Part shown: positions 4,275 to 27,677 of the stretch, piece after piece
How the letters are laid out: each line of letters opens with the position of its first letter
How positions within the stretch are numbered: position 1 is the first letter of the stretch
DNA from: Candidatus Peregrinibacteria bacterium
GTDB lineage: Bacteria > Patescibacteriota > Gracilibacteria > Peribacterales > Peribacteraceae
NCBI GenBank assembly: GCA_016196225.1
Contig: JACPXZ010000023.1
Span: 1-42,127 of the forward strand
DNA: 42,127 nt
Reading direction: 5' to 3'
Made by a program: the position numbers and the translations under genes
Notes under the pieces: generated by a model
Databases searched by the model: none
What the model was told of the DNA's origin: nothing
The model's input: the letters and a program-made list of their open reading frames with translations, nothing else

Positions 4275-4474
4275 TTGCCACGATCACCTGTCCCAAATGT
4301 GGCAAACAGTCGCAGGCACACATCCCTACAGATCAGTGCCAGTACTTCTACGTCTGTCCCCACTGCAAAACGAGGCTTAAATCAAAGGGGGAGGACTGCT
4401 GTGTGTTCTGTAGTTATGGAGATCGAAAATGCGGGAGACGAGATAATCCTAGGCGATTATCCCTTGAAAGCTAG
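4271..4474 (+). CDS. GDCCVxC-domain (Cys form of a selenoprotein family), altered C-terminus
   Basis: 67 aa. CPKCGK and CPHCK form a zinc-ribbon-like pair in the first half, followed by GEDCCVFCSYGDRKC, which matches the GDCCVxC '(seleno)protein' family that I recall near mercury/copper genes; here all positions are cysteine. The family normally ends in a short CPP-type tail, but this protein continues with GRRDNPRRLSLES. The change falls right at the boundary with the restriction-modification insert, whose endonuclease stop shares the same CTAG (4471-4474), so the end may have been remodelled by insertion. Biochemical function unknown. Confidence 0.7.
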   Translation: MIATITCPKCGKQSQAHIPTDQCQYFYVCPHCKTRLKSKGEDCCVFCSYGDRKCGRRDNPRRLSLES

Positions 4475-5001
4475 GTAAATGCTTTAGTGAAATCTTTGAT
4501 TACTCTCCCAAACTTTGCAATGGGTATGAGATCGTTCGGTTTTTTCGTCAATTTGTATGAAGCATTCGCACCTTTTTCCATTGTGACAAGGCTCCCAGCT
4601 TTTCCAGTTACTACGTCTGCTTTAGACCAAACGCGAAAATACAATTTATTGGGAGTAACACCTAAGCATAAAAGAGCATCATATGGTCTATGGTATCTCA
4701 CATGATTAAACTGAAAACTTCCGCTAACATCTTCAGTCGCAGTCTTTAGCTCAAACTTAACATCATCAATTTCAATATCCCACGGACTCTGGCTTAGCCT
4801 TGTTTTATCTTTTTTCATGGGAAACTTACATTTGACCGAAAGAGCATTGCAAAGGCTCTCGATAAAATCTTGACCTACAGAACCAACTTTAGTATTTGAA
4901 ATTGTTTTTATTCCAATAAAAGCACCTGCACCCCATTTAGGATTATCTTTATTGTTTTCCAAGGCTTCGATAAATAATCGTTGGTAGTCAATATCAGGCA
5001 T
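4471..5001 (-). CDS. Type II restriction endonuclease, PD-(D/E)xK fold
   Basis: 176 aa. A PD-(D/E)xK core is visible: Glu48 in the helix GQDFIESL, then PWDIEIDDVKFELK giving Asp75, Glu84 and Lys86 as candidate metal and catalytic residues. The short length and position directly after an adenine methyltransferase (8-nt overlap, 4994-5001) make this the endonuclease of a type II pair. The region is visibly more A+T-rich than its flanks, which suggests acquisition. The recognition site cannot be told from sequence. It ends tail to tail with the GDCCVxC gene at a shared CTAG. Confidence 0.75.
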   Translation of the reverse strand: MPDIDYQRLFIEALENNKDNPKWGAGAFIGIKTISNTKVGSVGQDFIESLCNALSVKCKFPMKKDKTRLSQSPWDIEIDDVKFELKTATEDVSGSFQFNHVRYHRPYDALLCLGVTPNKLYFRVWSKADVVTGKAGSLVTMEKGANASYKLTKKPNDLIPIAKFGRVIKDFTKAFT

Positions 5002-5917
5002 ACAGATGGGAATGATCGAGCAATGCCATCTTGATATGGTACATAGAAATGTGCCGACAGTTATGCGCCGCTAGATTGCTGTACTCATTCCAGTTGATAT
5101 TTTTTAGTATGCTGTGAATCATCTTCTGATGTTTTTTGAAAATTATTCCATAGCCGCATCCGTACCTTACTTCCGAAAAGCTACGCACAAGCACTGGATG
5201 ATCCCCAAAATACGTTCGCTGAATGAACGTATTGCAATCTTGAATTTTCTTCATGCCGCACAATCTTTCTTTTCGTAGATCAACTGTGAATAAATCCACA
5301 AATTCATCACATACGCTCAGATCAGGTTTCGGCGGCATCATTCCTTTTTCCCAGATTTGCCATAGAGCATTGATGTTCATTGTTTCTCCATTAGGAGAAA
5401 TGAAAATATCGTGTGGCAATCTTTCTGAATGAACCAGTCTCATTCCTTCCACTCTATGTTTGGGACTACCCTTGCCATCACTTTGAAACGACATCGGAAG
5501 AATGAAACCTGCATAGTCGCAAAACTCTGCAATCTTGTTCATAAACGAAAGGGCAAGCCATCCTCTATATCCAAAGGGCGGATTGCCTATTGCGATGAAC
5601 CTCCCCTTCCTCGGCGGTTCCCATGTCAGAAAATCATGTTGTATATATTCAGGGCGAAATTGCTCGACATCAATTCCTATTTTCTTTTGTGGAAGGAGAT
5701 CAAAAAATGCGCCGGTGCCTGCGCTTGGCTCTACAAAGGTAAAATCAGCAAGTGACACTTTTTTCTTTTGCAAAAACTTCTGAAATGAAAACCAACAATA
5801 ATCAGCCATTTCGGGCAATGTATTGTATTGATCTAATCCAATTTCTCTTCCGCGAACCCAATCAGGAATGCGATGAGTGAGTTCCCAAGCCTTATTTCTA
5901 ATCATGGTGGCATTCAT
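4994..5917 (-). CDS. Type II DNA (adenine-N6 or cytosine-N4) methyltransferase
   Basis: 307 aa. SAM-binding motif I is EPSAGTGAF (63-71) and catalytic motif IV is NPPF (112-115), in the order I then IV with the putative target-recognition region C-terminal, as in gamma-class amino-methyltransferases. NPPF fits methylation of an exocyclic amino group, usually adenine N6. It is first in a two-gene operon and overlaps the endonuclease start by 8 nt, so both come from one transcript and the nuclease is probably coupled to methylase translation. The promoter region upstream carries an operator nearly identical in layout to that of lexA (5963-5991). Confidence 0.85.
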   Translation of the reverse strand: MNATMIRNKAWELTHRIPDWVRGREIGLDQYNTLPEMADYCWFSFQKFLQKKKVSLADFTFVEPSAGTGAFFDLLPQKKIGIDVEQFRPEYIQHDFLTWEPPRKGRFIAIGNPPFGYRGWLALSFMNKIAEFCDYAGFILPMSFQSDGKGSPKHRVEGMRLVHSERLPHDIFISPNGETMNINALWQIWEKGMMPPKPDLSVCDEFVDLFTVDLRKERLCGMKKIQDCNTFIQRTYFGDHPVLVRSFSEVRYGCGYGIIFKKHQKMIHSILKNINWNEYSNLAAHNCRHISMYHIKMALLDHSHLYA

Positions 5918-5962
5918 AACACCCTAAGAGTATCCTGAATTAGGAGATCAGGATAGCCATTT

Positions 5963-5991
5963 ACACACTATAGGTGTACGAATGTCCACTT
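5963..5991 (-). promoter_or_regulatory. LexA-like operator and promoter of the restriction-modification operon
   Basis: Read on the - strand: CATTCGTACACC directly followed by TATAGT (5972-5967), a good -10. Aligned to the lexA promoter (27645-27673) without gaps, 22 of 29 positions are identical, including the GTGTAC half-site and the TAGG core, with the same orientation and the same placement relative to the -10. The -35 region (CTTTAA) is weak. The methyltransferase ATG lies about 50 nt downstream. Binding by this cell's LexA is inferred. Confidence 0.6.
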
Positions 5992-6051
5992 AAAGTGTTA
6001 CCTATCTACATATGCCTGAGAAATTCACAGACGCAAGGGGAGGAAAGTATC

Positions 6052-6089
6052 TACCCCTAGTCATCAAGGGGTAATCATCTTGTTATAAT
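6052..6089 (+). promoter_or_regulatory. Promoter region of the multicopper oxidase with a TACCCC/GGGGTA inverted repeat
   Basis: TACCCC (6052-6057) and GGGGTA (6068-6073) form an inverted repeat with a 10-nt spacer, just before a consensus -10 TATAAT (6084-6089). TACCCC/GGGGTA arms recall CsoR-type copper operators, though their spacing is usually shorter. No convincing -35 is seen, which would fit an activated or occluded promoter. No regulator gene is in the window. Confidence 0.4.
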
Positions 6090-6145
6090 GTTGTGATAAA
6101 GCCAGGAAAATGCGCTATGTTTCTCGGTATTCTTCTCCGCAGACG

Positions 6146-7708
6146 ATGAACAAAGTCCTCATCCCCCTTTTCGGGAGTATTCTCCTTCTCTCTGCCTGTA
6201 CCGGTGGTGGGTATCGATACAACGATCAGGGGTTTAGTGAACTCCCGCAAGCGGAGACGACAAAAATTATGGAAGTGAACGATGGTGAAACCATTACCCT
6301 CAATCCGGGTTTTGTGCGGAAGTCTGTCGATGGGAAGGAGTTTGCGATGTATGCGTATAACGGCCAAATTCCTGGACCAACACTTAAAGTGGAGCAAGGT
6401 TCAACGTTTACGGTCCAGGTGACCGATGGATTATATGTCCCGACGACGATTCACTGGCATGGGATACGTCTTGCCAATGCGAATGACGGGGTACCGGATG
6501 TCACTCAAAAGGCGATCGAACCCGGTGCATCATTCACCTATACCGTGACGGTGCCTGATGAAGGGATGTTTTGGTATCACCCGCATGTGCGCGAAGATTT
6601 GCAACAGGACATGGGACTGTATGGCAATCTCTGGGTTACTCCAAAGAAAGATAATCTCTACAATCCGGTGAATCGTGAGGAAGTCGTTATTCTCGATGAT
6701 CTGCTCCTCGATGGAGATCGACCGACTCCCTATGGCAAAGAGGAGGCAAACTTTGCGCTCATGGGACGGTTTGGGAACACGATGCTGATCAATGGACAGG
6801 AACGATACGCGTTATCGGTTGCCCGTGGGTCGGTCGTTCGTTTTTATCTTACCAATGCCGCAAATACACGGACATTCAATGTGCGTTTTACTGGCGCACG
6901 GATGAAGTTGGTTGGTGGAGATGTTGGGAGAACTGAGCGTGAAGAATTTTTAGAGAGTGTCATTCTCTCTCCATCGGAACGGGCAATTATTGAAGTGTTT
7001 TTTGATAAAGCAGGAACGTTCATCCTGGAACACCGAACACCAGAAAAAGTAATAGCTCTCGGAACAATCATAGTGACTGATACGGTCGTCTCACCTTCGT
7101 ATGCGACTTCCTTTATTCAGCCGACACAGAACAGTGATGTGATTGCCGATATCAAAAAATTCCGTTCATATGTTGATAAACCAGTCGACAAGATCATTCA
7201 CCTCTCAGTCGAATCGACGATGGCACGGATGATGCAAGGCGGCGGACATGGGGGAGGACATGGAGGATCGGCTGCGAAACCGGAGAATGATGAGGAAATT
7301 GAATGGGAAGACCCTATGCCGCATCAAAATTCGATGTCGACGAAACATAATACCAAGTGGAAGTTTATCGATGAGGCTTCCGCAGCCGAAAACATGGACA
7401 TCGCTTACAACGTCAAGGTTGGTGACAAGGTGAAAATCCGTTTGGTGAATGACGAGGAGACTGATGGTTCTGATCATCCCATGCAGCACCCGATCCACTT
7501 CCACGGGCAACGATTTTTGGTGTTATCGGTGAATGGAGAGAAGAATGAGAATTTCGTCTGGAAAGACACCGTACTCGTTCCGAAGGACGCGATCGTGGAC
7601 ATCCTCCTCGACGTGACGAATCCCGGCGACTGGATGTTCCATTGTCATATTGCAGAACACATCAGCAATGGGATGATGGGGATGTTGAAGGTGAAGGGAG
7701 AGAATTAA
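6146..7708 (+). CDS. Multicopper oxidase lipoprotein (CopA/CueO type)
   Basis: 520 aa from the ATG at 6146, chosen because it gives a lipoprotein signal (MNKVLIPLFGSILLLSAC); an earlier ATG at 6110 would add 12 polar residues. Type 2/3 copper ligands: HWHG (103-106) and HPHVRED (145-151), then HPIHFHG (448-454) and HCHIAEHISNGMMGM (499-513), which holds the T1 Cys, His and Met. A His/Gly-rich stretch with Met (GGGHGGGHGG, about 365-376) resembles the metal-binding inserts of Cu(I) oxidases such as CueO. It probably oxidises Cu(I) to Cu(II) outside the membrane, working with the Cu+ pump. It lies on the far side of the restriction-modification insert from the other copper genes. Confidence 0.92.
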   Translation: MNKVLIPLFGSILLLSACTGGGYRYNDQGFSELPQAETTKIMEVNDGETITLNPGFVRKSVDGKEFAMYAYNGQIPGPTLKVEQGSTFTVQVTDGLYVPTTIHWHGIRLANANDGVPDVTQKAIEPGASFTYTVTVPDEGMFWYHPHVREDLQQDMGLYGNLWVTPKKDNLYNPVNREEVVILDDLLLDGDRPTPYGKEEANFALMGRFGNTMLINGQERYALSVARGSVVRFYLTNAANTRTFNVRFTGARMKLVGGDVGRTEREEFLESVILSPSERAIIEVFFDKAGTFILEHRTPEKVIALGTIIVTDTVVSPSYATSFIQPTQNSDVIADIKKFRSYVDKPVDKIIHLSVESTMARMMQGGGHGGGHGGSAAKPENDEEIEWEDPMPHQNSMSTKHNTKWKFIDEASAAENMDIAYNVKVGDKVKIRLVNDEETDGSDHPMQHPIHFHGQRFLVLSVNGEKNENFVWKDTVLVPKDAIVDILLDVTNPGDWMFHCHIAEHISNGMMGMLKVKGEN

Positions 7709-24475: not shown

Positions 24476-27046
24476 ATGTTGGATAAGGCCTACAACCCAC
24501 AGCCGACCGAGAGCCGGATTTATAAAATGTGGGAGGAGAATAGGGCCTTTGAGCCGAAGGATAATCCAGCTGAAAAACCGTTTTGCATCATCCTGCCACC
24601 ACCGAATGCGAATGGTTATTTACATCTCGGTCATGCGATGTATGTCATTGAGGATATTTTGGTCCGCTGGCATCGCATGCAGGGGCATCCAACACTTTGG
24701 ATGCCAGGAACTGATCATGCAGGTATCGAGACGCAGGTGGTCTACGAGCGGAAACTGGAAGAGGAGGGGCGAAGTCGTTTTGATCTTGGTCCCGATAAGT
24801 TCTATGACGAGGTGATGCGGTTCACACGTGCCAATCAGAAGAACATGATCAATCAAATGCGATCTATGGGATTCAGTGCGGACTGGTCGAAGATCAAGTT
24901 CACGCTCGACGAAGACATCATAGATATCGTCTACGATACTTTCATTGCTCTCGATCGGGATGGAATGGTGTACCGTGGTAATCGTGTTTGCAATTGGTGT
25001 CCGCGGTGCCAGACCTCTTTCGCAGATATCGAGATCAAGTATCAAGAAGAGAGTGCGTTCATGTACACGCTGGATTACGGTTCGGTCCGGATCGGAACCA
25101 CACGTCCTGAGACGATCTTTGCTGATACTGCCGTAGCGGTAAATCCTGATGACAAGCGGTATAAGACGCTTGTTGGGAAGAAAGCAATTGTTCCACTTAT
25201 TCAGAAAATAATCCCGATCATTGCCGATAACCATGTCGATCCGAAGATCGGTACCGGAGCATTGAAGGTGACTCCCGCTCATGATTTTCATGACTATGAG
25301 ATCGGGATGCGGCATAAACTTCCGAATCCGAGTGTGATCGACAAGGAAGGCAGAATGATCAATGTTCCCGATGAACTTTCGGGACTGGTAACCTCAGAGG
25401 CACGCACAAAGACCGTTGATTTACTGGATAAGGCCGGTGTTCTCATTACGAAGGAGCCATTACAACACTCCGTTGCGCATTGCGAGCGGTGCGGCACGGT
25501 GATTGAGCCGATTCCTACAGATCAGTGGTATGTGAAGGTCGATAAATTGAAACAACGATCAAAAGAAGCGCTTGAAAAAGGAGATATTCGTATCATCCCA
25601 GAACGTTTTACAAAGCAATGTATCGATTGGCTCGATCAAATGTACGACTGGAATGTGAGTCGTCAAATCTGGTGGGGGATTCGTATGCCTGTGTACTATC
25701 CGCTGGAGTCAAAGTCGGGAAAGAAAGAATATCTTATTGCAAAAACAGAGAAGGAAGCGAAGGACTACTATGGTGAGAAGAACTATCGTGTAGAAACGGA
25801 TACATTCGATACGTGGTTTTCTTCTTCTCAGTGGCCGCATGCCACACTTGCAACAAATGGAATGCTGGATCAGTTTTATCCTACGAGCGTCATGGAAACA
25901 GGACGCGATATTCTTTTCAAGTGGGTTGCACGTATGATCATGCTCGGCCTCTATACAATGAATGATGTTCCGTTTCGCACGGTGTATCTTCACGGACTTG
26001 TTCGTGATGAAAAGGGACAGAAGATGAGCAAATCCAAAGGCAACGTTATTAATCCTCTTGAGATGACATCAGTATTTGGGACGGATGCGCTGCGGATGGC
26101 GTTGACGATTGGTGTAACTTCAGGAAACGATGGCAGTCTGAGTACAGAAAAGGTTGAAGGGTATCGCAATTTTATCAATAAACTCTGGAATGCAAGTCGG
26201 TTTGTGCTGATGCAGTGTGAAGAGCATAAGGTCGTGCCAGCCAATGTTGCTGAGGATGACTTTGAACTTTTGAGTCTTGCGGATAAAGCTCTGTTCCATG
26301 AGTTACTCGATGTTCGGGTATTTGTAACGCAGGGATTGGAGCAATATCGTTTGAGTGAAGTAGGAGAGAGACTCTATGACTTTATATGGGATTATTTTTG
26401 TGATTGGTATTTGGAACTTTCTAAAGGGGAATCCAATCCTGAGCTTCTTGTATTTGCTGTACGAGAAATCTTAGTACTTCTTCATCCGTACTGTCCTTTT
26501 GTGACAGAAGAATTGTGGTCTCACGTGAAACAAAAAGAATTCGGTATGCTGATACAGCAACCTTGGCCCGCGTTTGTTGATTCAGGTTGTGCGAATGAAC
26601 ATACAGAGTTAGAAGTGGTCATTGCTGTTATTAAAGCTATTCGTAAAATCCGCGCAGAGCAGGGGGTTGCTCCGGATAAAAAAGTACAGGTGATAGTGGT
26701 GCCCGGAAAACATGCATCGGTTCTCAAACCACAACAAGATCACATCATGCGCTTGAGTCGCAGCGATGTACTAGAATTCACAAAAAAACCATCAGGTGAT
26801 GTTGCAAGTTTGTTCCTTCCCGATGGGATCGAAGTGCATGTTTCAATGGAGGGACTGGTGGATTTGGAGGGATTGAAAAAAGAACAAACACAACTCAAAT
26901 CGTATGTGGATTCTTTAGGTAAAAAGTTAAGCAATGAACAATTTACCTCGCGAGCACCGGCAGCGGTGATCGAACAAGAAAGGCAGAAGCTAGCAGAGGC
27001 AGAAGGAAAGTTAAAAAAGATCGAAGAGCGTCTTAGTACTTCCTAA
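24476..27046 (+). CDS. valS: Valyl-tRNA synthetase
   Basis: 856 aa, usual length. Class I motifs: PPPNANGYLHLGHAM (HIGH box as HLGH) and KMSKSKGNVINP (KMSKS box). CP1 editing domain with GTRPETIFADTAVAVNP and TPAHDFHDYEIG; anticodon-binding domain; C-terminal coiled coil (LVDLEGLKKEQTQLKSYVDSLGKKLSN). WMPGTDHAGIETQ is typical of ValS. It attaches valine to tRNA-Val and hydrolyses mischarged threonine. It ends with a 14-nt convergent overlap with lexA. Confidence 0.97.
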   Translation: MLDKAYNPQPTESRIYKMWEENRAFEPKDNPAEKPFCIILPPPNANGYLHLGHAMYVIEDILVRWHRMQGHPTLWMPGTDHAGIETQVVYERKLEEEGRSRFDLGPDKFYDEVMRFTRANQKNMINQMRSMGFSADWSKIKFTLDEDIIDIVYDTFIALDRDGMVYRGNRVCNWCPRCQTSFADIEIKYQEESAFMYTLDYGSVRIGTTRPETIFADTAVAVNPDDKRYKTLVGKKAIVPLIQKIIPIIADNHVDPKIGTGALKVTPAHDFHDYEIGMRHKLPNPSVIDKEGRMINVPDELSGLVTSEARTKTVDLLDKAGVLITKEPLQHSVAHCERCGTVIEPIPTDQWYVKVDKLKQRSKEALEKGDIRIIPERFTKQCIDWLDQMYDWNVSRQIWWGIRMPVYYPLESKSGKKEYLIAKTEKEAKDYYGEKNYRVETDTFDTWFSSSQWPHATLATNGMLDQFYPTSVMETGRDILFKWVARMIMLGLYTMNDVPFRTVYLHGLVRDEKGQKMSKSKGNVINPLEMTSVFGTDALRMALTIGVTSGNDGSLSTEKVEGYRNFINKLWNASRFVLMQCEEHKVVPANVAEDDFELLSLADKALFHELLDVRVFVTQGLEQYRLSEVGERLYDFIWDYFCDWYLELSKGESNPELLVFAVREILVLLHPYCPFVTEELWSHVKQKEFGMLIQQPWPAFVDSGCANEHTELEVVIAVIKAIRKIRAEQGVAPDKKVQVIVVPGKHASVLKPQQDHIMRLSRSDVLEFTKKPSGDVASLFLPDGIEVHVSMEGLVDLEGLKKEQTQLKSYVDSLGKKLSNEQFTSRAPAAVIEQERQKLAEAEGKLKKIEERLSTS

Positions 27047-27638
27047 CCGATCCTCGTACAATCCCTGCCACCTGCAATTCTTCCAATGGATGAAGATCGG
27101 GGTAGGCGGGGTTTTCGGCTTGGAGACAGAACTTTCCCTTATTCCTCTTGAGACGTTTAAGGGTGAAAGCGTTGTCGAGGATACCCACAACAATATCATT
27201 TACTTTCGGCTCTCGACCCTTCTCGACAATCACGAGATCCCCATCGAAGATCCCCGCGTTGATCATGCTGTCTCCTTTGACACGCAGGAGAAACGTTTTC
27301 TTTTTATTGGAGACAAGAAATGTGTCGAGAGTAATCAATTCTTCCGCGTGTTCCTCTGCATCCCCGCCGTATCCTGCCGAGATCGGTCCAAAGAGCGGGA
27401 GCATGAGTGGGGCCGGTAGATCATCGCGATCTTTTAGATCAATGATCTTAATACGCCCTTTAGGATCTTTTTCGATGTGACTCTCACGGACAAGGATGGC
27501 AATCACTTTGGCCACGGCATTTTTGCTGCGCACCCCAAAAGCAAGGGCGAGATCAGCGAGAGACGGGGAGTATCCGCGCTTAAGCTGAAATTCGCGAATG
27601 TAGGCTAAGACCGTGCGCTGATGGGAGGTGAGAGACAT
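27033..27638 (-). CDS. lexA: LexA SOS repressor / S24-type autoprotease
   Basis: 201 aa from the ATG at 27638; an upstream TTG would place coding sequence inside the promoter. Winged-helix N-terminus (SHQRTVLAYIREFQLKRGYSPSLADLALAFGVRS), cleavage site Ala88-Gly89 in GPISAGYGG, catalytic Ser124 in KGDSMINAGI and Lys161 in AFTLKRLK. Ser-Lys dyad and Ala-Gly site are those of a self-cleaving repressor activated by RecA filaments. The gene has its own promoter overlapped by an operator with three half-sites (27645-27677), implying autorepression. A related operator lies upstream of the restriction-modification operon. Confidence 0.93.
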   Translation of the reverse strand: MSLTSHQRTVLAYIREFQLKRGYSPSLADLALAFGVRSKNAVAKVIAILVRESHIEKDPKGRIKIIDLKDRDDLPAPLMLPLFGPISAGYGGDAEEHAEELITLDTFLVSNKKKTFLLRVKGDSMINAGIFDGDLVIVEKGREPKVNDIVVGILDNAFTLKRLKRNKGKFCLQAENPAYPDLHPLEELQVAGIVRGSVRKY

Positions 27639-27644
27639 TGTCGA

Positions 27645-27677
27645 GTACACTGTAGGTGTACAGATGTACACTGTCAA
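27645..27677 (-). promoter_or_regulatory. lexA promoter and LexA operator
   Basis: On the - strand: TTGACA (27677-27672), 17-nt spacer, TACAGT (27654-27649), then 10 nt to the ATG. The spacer and -10 hold three alternating half-sites, GTACAC (27645-27650), GTGTAC (27656-27661) and GTACAC (27666-27671), giving inverted pairs with 5- and 4-nt gaps. This is the best candidate LexA box in the window, and differs from both the E. coli CTGT-N8-ACAG and Bacillus GAAC-N4-GTTC types. Confidence 0.8.

Follow-up and report, generated by a model that had tools for sequence, protein, structure and literature searches.

A predicted LexA operator precedes an apparently acquired restriction-modification pair in a Candidatus Peribacteraceae genome, with counterparts before unrelated restriction-modification systems in related genomes

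The stretch of DNA analyzed here (hereafter the window; 42,127 nucleotides, contig JACPXZ010000023.1 of GenBank assembly GCA_016196225.1) comes from a Candidatus Peribacteraceae genome of 1.085 Mb in 38 contigs, whose lineage was named via its lexA relatives. Peribacteraceae are tiny bacteria, mostly uncultured. The window carries genes for a Type II DNA methyltransferase (M) and a Type II restriction endonuclease (R), a divergently oriented multicopper oxidase gene, and lexA (Table 1). R and M had no match in Pfam, NCBIfam, or PDB, and both were identified by PADLOC. Together they make up a predicted Type II restriction-modification (R-M) system, without methylome or cleavage data. The end of M and the R reading frame share 8 bp, and the two genes are for this reason probably in one operon.

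Table 1. Features of the window and box-bearing loci in the genome sample
Feature	Coordinates or loci	Strand	Basis or remark
Type II restriction endonuclease gene (R), candidate PWD...ELK nuclease motif	4471..5001	-	PADLOC REase_II, 4.2e-10
Type II DNA methyltransferase gene (M), motifs EPSAGTGAF and NPPF	4994..5917	-	PADLOC MTase_II, 5.6e-60
Inverted repeat ATCCTGA-N9-TCAGGAT, leader between operator and methyltransferase	5932..5954	-	sequence
Degenerate third half-site GTGTGT	5963..5968	-	second-box position of relatives' lexA promoters; sequence
Putative -10 hexamer TATAGT, adjoining the box	5967..5972	-	position of TACAGT (own lexA) and TANNAT (relatives' lexA)
Predicted LexA operator (SOS box) GTGGACATTCGTACAC, methyltransferase promoter	5974..5989	-	matrix, 21.9 bits, and exact extended-box match
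Weak hexamer CTTTAA at the -35 position, 17 nt upstream of the -10	5990..5995	-	aligned with TTGACA of lexA
Divergent multicopper oxidase gene	6110..7708	+	orthologs without box
lexA	27033..27638	-	TIGR00498, 134.8 bits; Peptidase_S24 and LexA_DNA_bind
LexA operator GTGTACATCTGTACAC, lexA promoter	27656..27671	-	sequence, relatives' lexA promoters, matrix
Box before LAGLIDADG gene	G000:C8:98661-98676 (L129:3162-3177); relatives L376-L383, L385, L387
Boxes before comM	G000:C8:43733-43784; 28 relatives
Box before short VIDWS protein gene	G000:C35:31713; L245, L254, L266, L294, others
Box before 23S rRNA-intervening-sequence protein gene	L212, L243, L268, L293, L295
Exact boxes 43-89 bp before R-M or methyltransferase operons	G001 (two), G003, G005, G006, G016, G019, G021, G025 (three), G030, G031, G038, G061
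Exact box 27 bp before R-M or methyltransferase operon	G036
Tandem R-M systems, own box each	G025:C27:23000-31000 (L261)
Extended element at R-M boxes	L207, L211, L214, L241, L251, L256, L264, L272, L303, L319
Extended element at recA distal box	L157, L258

The G+C content of R (37%) and M (41%) is low against that of the window (49%), in keeping with the preliminary description, which held the R-M block to be A+T-richer and probably acquired. A relative, G003, keeps the flanking genes (BNR-like, 85%; oxidase, 72%; next gene, 84%), and at this syntenic locus the R-M block is absent and an unrelated reading frame stands in its place. From the low G+C content and this absence, the M-R pair is inferred to be an acquired, foreign insertion. 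No ortholog of M was found in the 73 other genomes of the family sample (74 genomes including its own) or in the phylum sample that brought the total to 380 genomes. Pattern scans of genome and viral contigs with M likewise found nothing, and tblastn of M against plasmids and phages gave partial matches only (26-38%). For R, tblastn against plasmids gave no match, and a pattern search of viral contigs returned one phage contig. That viral contig, of 189 kb, carries a phage-borne M-R pair in the same gene order, with M 45% and R 49% identical.

Upstream of M, positions 5963-5991 share 22 of 29 bases, ungapped, with positions 27645-27673 of the lexA promoter, the resemblance that had first drawn attention to the site. 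Apart from overlapping and reverse-complement placements of the two sites, ungapped alignments elsewhere in the window matched the lexA operator at 18 of 29 bases at best. Read on the minus strand, the 16-bp dyad core before M (5989-5974) is GTGGAC-ATTC-GTACAC followed by CTATAGTGTGT, and that of lexA (27656-27671) is GTGTAC-ATCT-GTACAC followed by CTACAGTGTAC; in both, the dyad is followed by CTA. The three half-site layout that had been claimed for the two sites needs a small correction. A third half-site is present at both, GTGTAC in lexA and a weaker counterpart, GTGTGT, before M, where it is degenerate; the lexA one is what is left of a second, complete box still found in relatives.

Sites were scored with a matrix built from the boxes of 29 relatives' lexA promoters, with the window's own genome left out. 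The methyltransferase site ranked first in the window at 21.9 bits and lexA second at 19.4 bits, and the third-best position scored 10.0 bits. The family lexA half-promoter, or extended box, GTGNACNNNCGTNCACCTA had one exact match in the 1.085-Mb genome, which is the methyltransferase site; its one-mismatch matches genome-wide were at lexA, in the recA upstream region, and at C35:31713. This genome was searched by pattern and in stretches only.

When aligned with the lexA promoter, the box occupies the -35/-10 spacer of the putative methyltransferase promoter. Both sites had been described as placed over the -10, and in this alignment TATAGT of the methyltransferase and TACAGT of lexA stand at the matching position. 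The resemblance to lexA is limited to the -10, and the -35 (CTTTAA) is poor. A consensus scan found no sigma-70 promoter of at least 9/12 at the methyltransferase site, TATAGT being missed because the -35 is weak. The putative promoter has the lexA form, [box]CTATAGTG. The inverted repeat in the leader, a possible second control site, folds as a hairpin whose stability is unremarkable (z -0.48).

A genome search yielded only one LexA-like gene in the window's own genome, and LexA was present in 69 of the 74 family genomes, mostly at 61-73% identity. Boxes were found upstream of all 30 lexA genes fetched (29 relatives and the window's own). The box of the relatives, GTGNAC-N4-GTNCAC, occurred in one or two copies around the -10 in 29/29 cases. 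Their lexA promoter reads, with minor variants, TTGAC-N-GTGNACNNNCGTNCACCTANNATGGTGNACG..., with one box in the -35/-10 spacer; most of the 29 have a second box 3' of the -10. Across the 74 family genomes, GTGTACNNNNGTACAC occurred 224 times, and its reversed control 8 times.

In the window's own genome, boxes with an exact or close match precede lexA, recA (two), comM (two), the methyltransferase gene, a small gene, and a LAGLIDADG gene that lies within the 23S rRNA gene; in relatives, boxes precede recA, ssb, dinB, rmuC, and recG. Surroundings were fetched for exact boxes in genomes G001-G043, the downstream genes were then clustered, and names were assigned separately for cluster representatives. 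The clusters comprised comM/Mg-chelatase-like genes (29), recA (10), ssb (10), a short protein family (12), 23S rRNA-intervening-sequence proteins (9), BRO-N (6), RmuC (3), and RecG-type (3), as well as DinB and GIY-YIG. LexA autoregulation is well known, and LexA boxes lie over the lexA, recA, ssb, and dinB promoters in SOS regulons, for example in Escherichia coli and Bacillus subtilis. Enrichment of the motif at SOS genes had been set as a test of the LexA reading, and the boxes at lexA, recA, and comM in this genome and at ssb, dinB, rmuC, and recG in relatives fulfilled it. From those at recA, comM, ssb, dinB, and rmuC, we infer that GTGNAC-N4-GTNCAC is the SOS box of Peribacteraceae.

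Among the most constant box-bearing genes was comM, found in this role in the window's genome and 28 relatives. Its product is the Mg-chelatase-like helicase of natural transformation. The box at comM would thereby suggest, without proof, a tie between SOS and DNA uptake in Peribacteraceae.

Other genes carry the box close to their starts. For LAGLIDADG genes in the 23S rRNA gene, it lies just before the start codon in 10/10 full-length relatives checked, at 19-24 bits. That this box acts as an RNA hairpin was rejected as the main reading, since changes in the arms break the pairing and keep the LexA-like sequence; the intron LAGLIDADG endonucleases may, on this ground, be SOS-controlled too. 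A family of short proteins of about 75-105 aa with the motif VIDWS has the box 7-9 bp before the start. The one member checked had no Pfam match, and the genes adjoin a XerC/D-like recombinase gene in some genomes; the family may represent an SOS-controlled inhibitor of cell division or a checkpoint protein. At genes for 23S rRNA-intervening-sequence proteins (PF05635), the box reaches the start codon (distance 0).

We observed the same box before R-M systems elsewhere in the family. At least 15 boxes lie 27-89 bp ahead of the first start codon of operons for Type II R-M systems or DNA methyltransferases. The endonucleases of these systems belong to the Pfam families MvaI_BcnI, BglII, and TdeIII (several genomes), LlaMI, EcoRII-C, AccI, and XhoI, to which a survey of C5-methyltransferases added NgoFVII and Bse634I/Cfr10I, and these families are mutually unrelated. 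That survey, an independent one, covered all 74 genomes and identified 16 C5-methyltransferase loci. In eight of these a box scoring 12.5 bits or more lay a short distance before the start, and two more had one within 400 bp; about 0.03 loci would be expected if random matches occur about five times per Mb. In a PF01555 survey, most of the strongest methyltransferase hits (N6/N4; type III, ParB-fused, and others) had no box, and the rule therefore covers a subset of R-M systems and is not universal. The proposal that LexA controls an R-M system gains support from the boxes at unrelated systems, with the control itself remaining an inference. Their presence before so many unrelated systems suggests that restriction may be switched on by DNA damage or uptake.

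In one relative (G025), unrelated MvaI-type and AccI-type R-M systems stand in tandem. Many R-M boxes of relatives belong to an extended element whose spacing hardly varies, [box]CAYAACATTT-N10-GCA, and about 55 bp beyond the box are shared across unrelated enzymes. The same element occurs at the distal box of recA. Most of the relatives' R-M operators have this element and the window site does not, so its promoter would be of the lexA type rather than the usual R-M type.

Short palindromes arise randomly, and the site had been picked by eye. However, no position in 20 Mb of simulated random sequence reached 19.4 bits, compared with 21.9 bits for the site, which is moreover unique genome-wide and of a kind that recurs before relatives' R-M systems. 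Provided that the matrix is right, the simulation and this uniqueness rule out chance resemblance to a LexA box, to which we attach practically no weight. A genuine operator could still serve the oxidase gene and leave the R-M genes as bystanders, given that it lies within the divergent intergenic region 5918-6109 and that CTATAG is a partial -10 in either direction. Against this, none of 15 multicopper oxidase relatives had a box of at least 8 bits in the 700 bp upstream, and because its orthologs lack the box, the oxidase is probably not the target. The box is also about 57 bp from the start of M versus about 120 bp from that of the oxidase, the oxidase start has its own TTATAAT nearby, and it is R-M genes that bear boxes in many relatives. 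We discarded the oxidase as target on account of its box-less relatives and consider such a role very improbable.

The identity of the regulator could also be questioned, as some relatives encode, besides LexA, a distant protein of the LexA/S24 type, and a controller often comes along with an R-M system. A phage-type repressor or R-M controller copying the specificity of LexA might then read the box without any SOS control. Yet LexA-like genes number only one in this genome, no small HTH controller frame of at least 80 aa was apparent in the R-M block (4300-6110; shorter frames were not covered), and the site is the best match in the genome to the lexA promoter itself, which leaves such a regulator improbable. 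Slightly more room, though still little, remains for the box being part of a mobile R-M unit, as a recombination site or travelling promoter, and not recruited in place by the host. The sequence common to R-M systems of unrelated enzymes beyond the box would fit such a unit, as would the tandem systems with a box before each. The extended element is nonetheless also found upstream of recA, where it has the look of a type of promoter rather than of a site for mobility, and this weakens the reading of relatives' R-M boxes as recombination sites; the window site lacks the element altogether. Furthermore, we observed no box upstream of the phage-borne M-R pair (best score, 2.6 bits).

The preliminary description had left undecided whether the operator was recruited by the host or the system carries LexA-like control of its own. 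The evidence favors the former: the phage-borne pair has no box, the G003 locus has no block, and the lack of a box at both the phage-borne pair and the oxidase orthologs speaks for host recruitment. In the most economical interpretation, the R-M pair came under the control of a LexA-type promoter within this host lineage. We consider it highly probable that a host LexA operator at 5974-5989 holds the acquired M-R operon low, that SOS derepresses it, and that R-M systems have been recruited in this way recurrently across the family.

That LexA binds the site, represses the operon, and lets it be induced, and that DNA uptake is linked to this, are inferences from the sequence and from established LexA biology, with no binding or expression data. 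A LexA dimer in undamaged cells would fill the -35/-10 spacer, block RNA polymerase, and keep the M-R operon low. RecA filaments formed on single-stranded DNA, through damage or DNA uptake, would trigger self-cleavage of LexA. M and R would then be derepressed together with lexA, recA, and comM, and modification and restriction would rise at once. DNA uptake is suggested as one SOS trigger, without proof, because comM and ssb share the regulon. A foreign R-M pair would thus have been put under the host SOS box, a step that would have been repeated independently for many Type II R-M systems in Peribacteraceae.

Like the LexA/SOS regulons of E. coli and B. subtilis, the predicted regulon has autoregulation, a palindromic operator, and a single LexA with an S24 peptidase domain. 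Its box differs from the CTGT-N8-ACAG and CGAAC-N4-GTTCG of E. coli- and B. subtilis-type regulons, and unlike these regulons it further includes comM, R-M systems of Type II, and the homing endonucleases of rRNA introns. Sanchez-Osuna and colleagues reportedly described in 2017 (Environ Microbiol 19:3465) the LexA network of Patescibacteria, the same broad bacterial group. PMC7739468, published later, cites that study among examples of direct-repeat LexA motifs; as cited there, that motif contrasts with the palindrome of Peribacteraceae.

C-protein-controlled Type II R-M systems likewise have a palindromic operator over the R-M promoter that governs M and R, but no C gene stands out here and the predicted regulator is the host's global LexA. 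R-M systems are usually viewed as constitutive or timed by their own controller proteins. LexA repression of toxin-antitoxin genes is reviewed alongside R-M regulation in PMC3874152, and the SOS-regulated genes symE, tisB, and yafN-yafO resemble the present case in being potentially harmful modules under LexA repression. The portion of that review considered here links R-M to SOS as an inducer only and names no LexA-repressed R-M system. DNA damage is also linked to restriction in the alleviation of EcoKI by ClpXP, which is post-translational and lowers restriction, whereas here transcription of M and R would rise. No LexA-repressed Type II R-M system was found in the literature searched, which did not cover the Patescibacteria LexA-network study.

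The SOS regulon itself is known; what appears to be new is that it takes in R-M systems. We know of no bacterium with a regulon content that includes R-M and homing enzymes, and to our knowledge the effect found for damage is a decrease of restriction (alleviation) rather than its activation. The repeated placement of unrelated R-M systems under host LexA suggests that a coupling of restriction to damage or uptake has been selected for. The small-genome bacteria concerned depend on foreign DNA and on hosts. A testable question is whether SOS control allows a dangerous nuclease to be retained, restrains it when it first arrives, or sets its timing to the entry of DNA. Evenly balanced, in our judgment, is the broader proposal that the LexA regulon systematically captures DNA-cutting elements, including at least nine Type II endonuclease families and the 23S-intron LAGLIDADG enzymes, which would be expressed with RecA, SSB, and ComM, making SOS the switch for restriction and homing in damage or natural transformation. 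That homing endonucleases of introns are preceded by the box as well suggests a shared rule, by which DNA-cutting selfish genes would cut when the recombination machinery is up.
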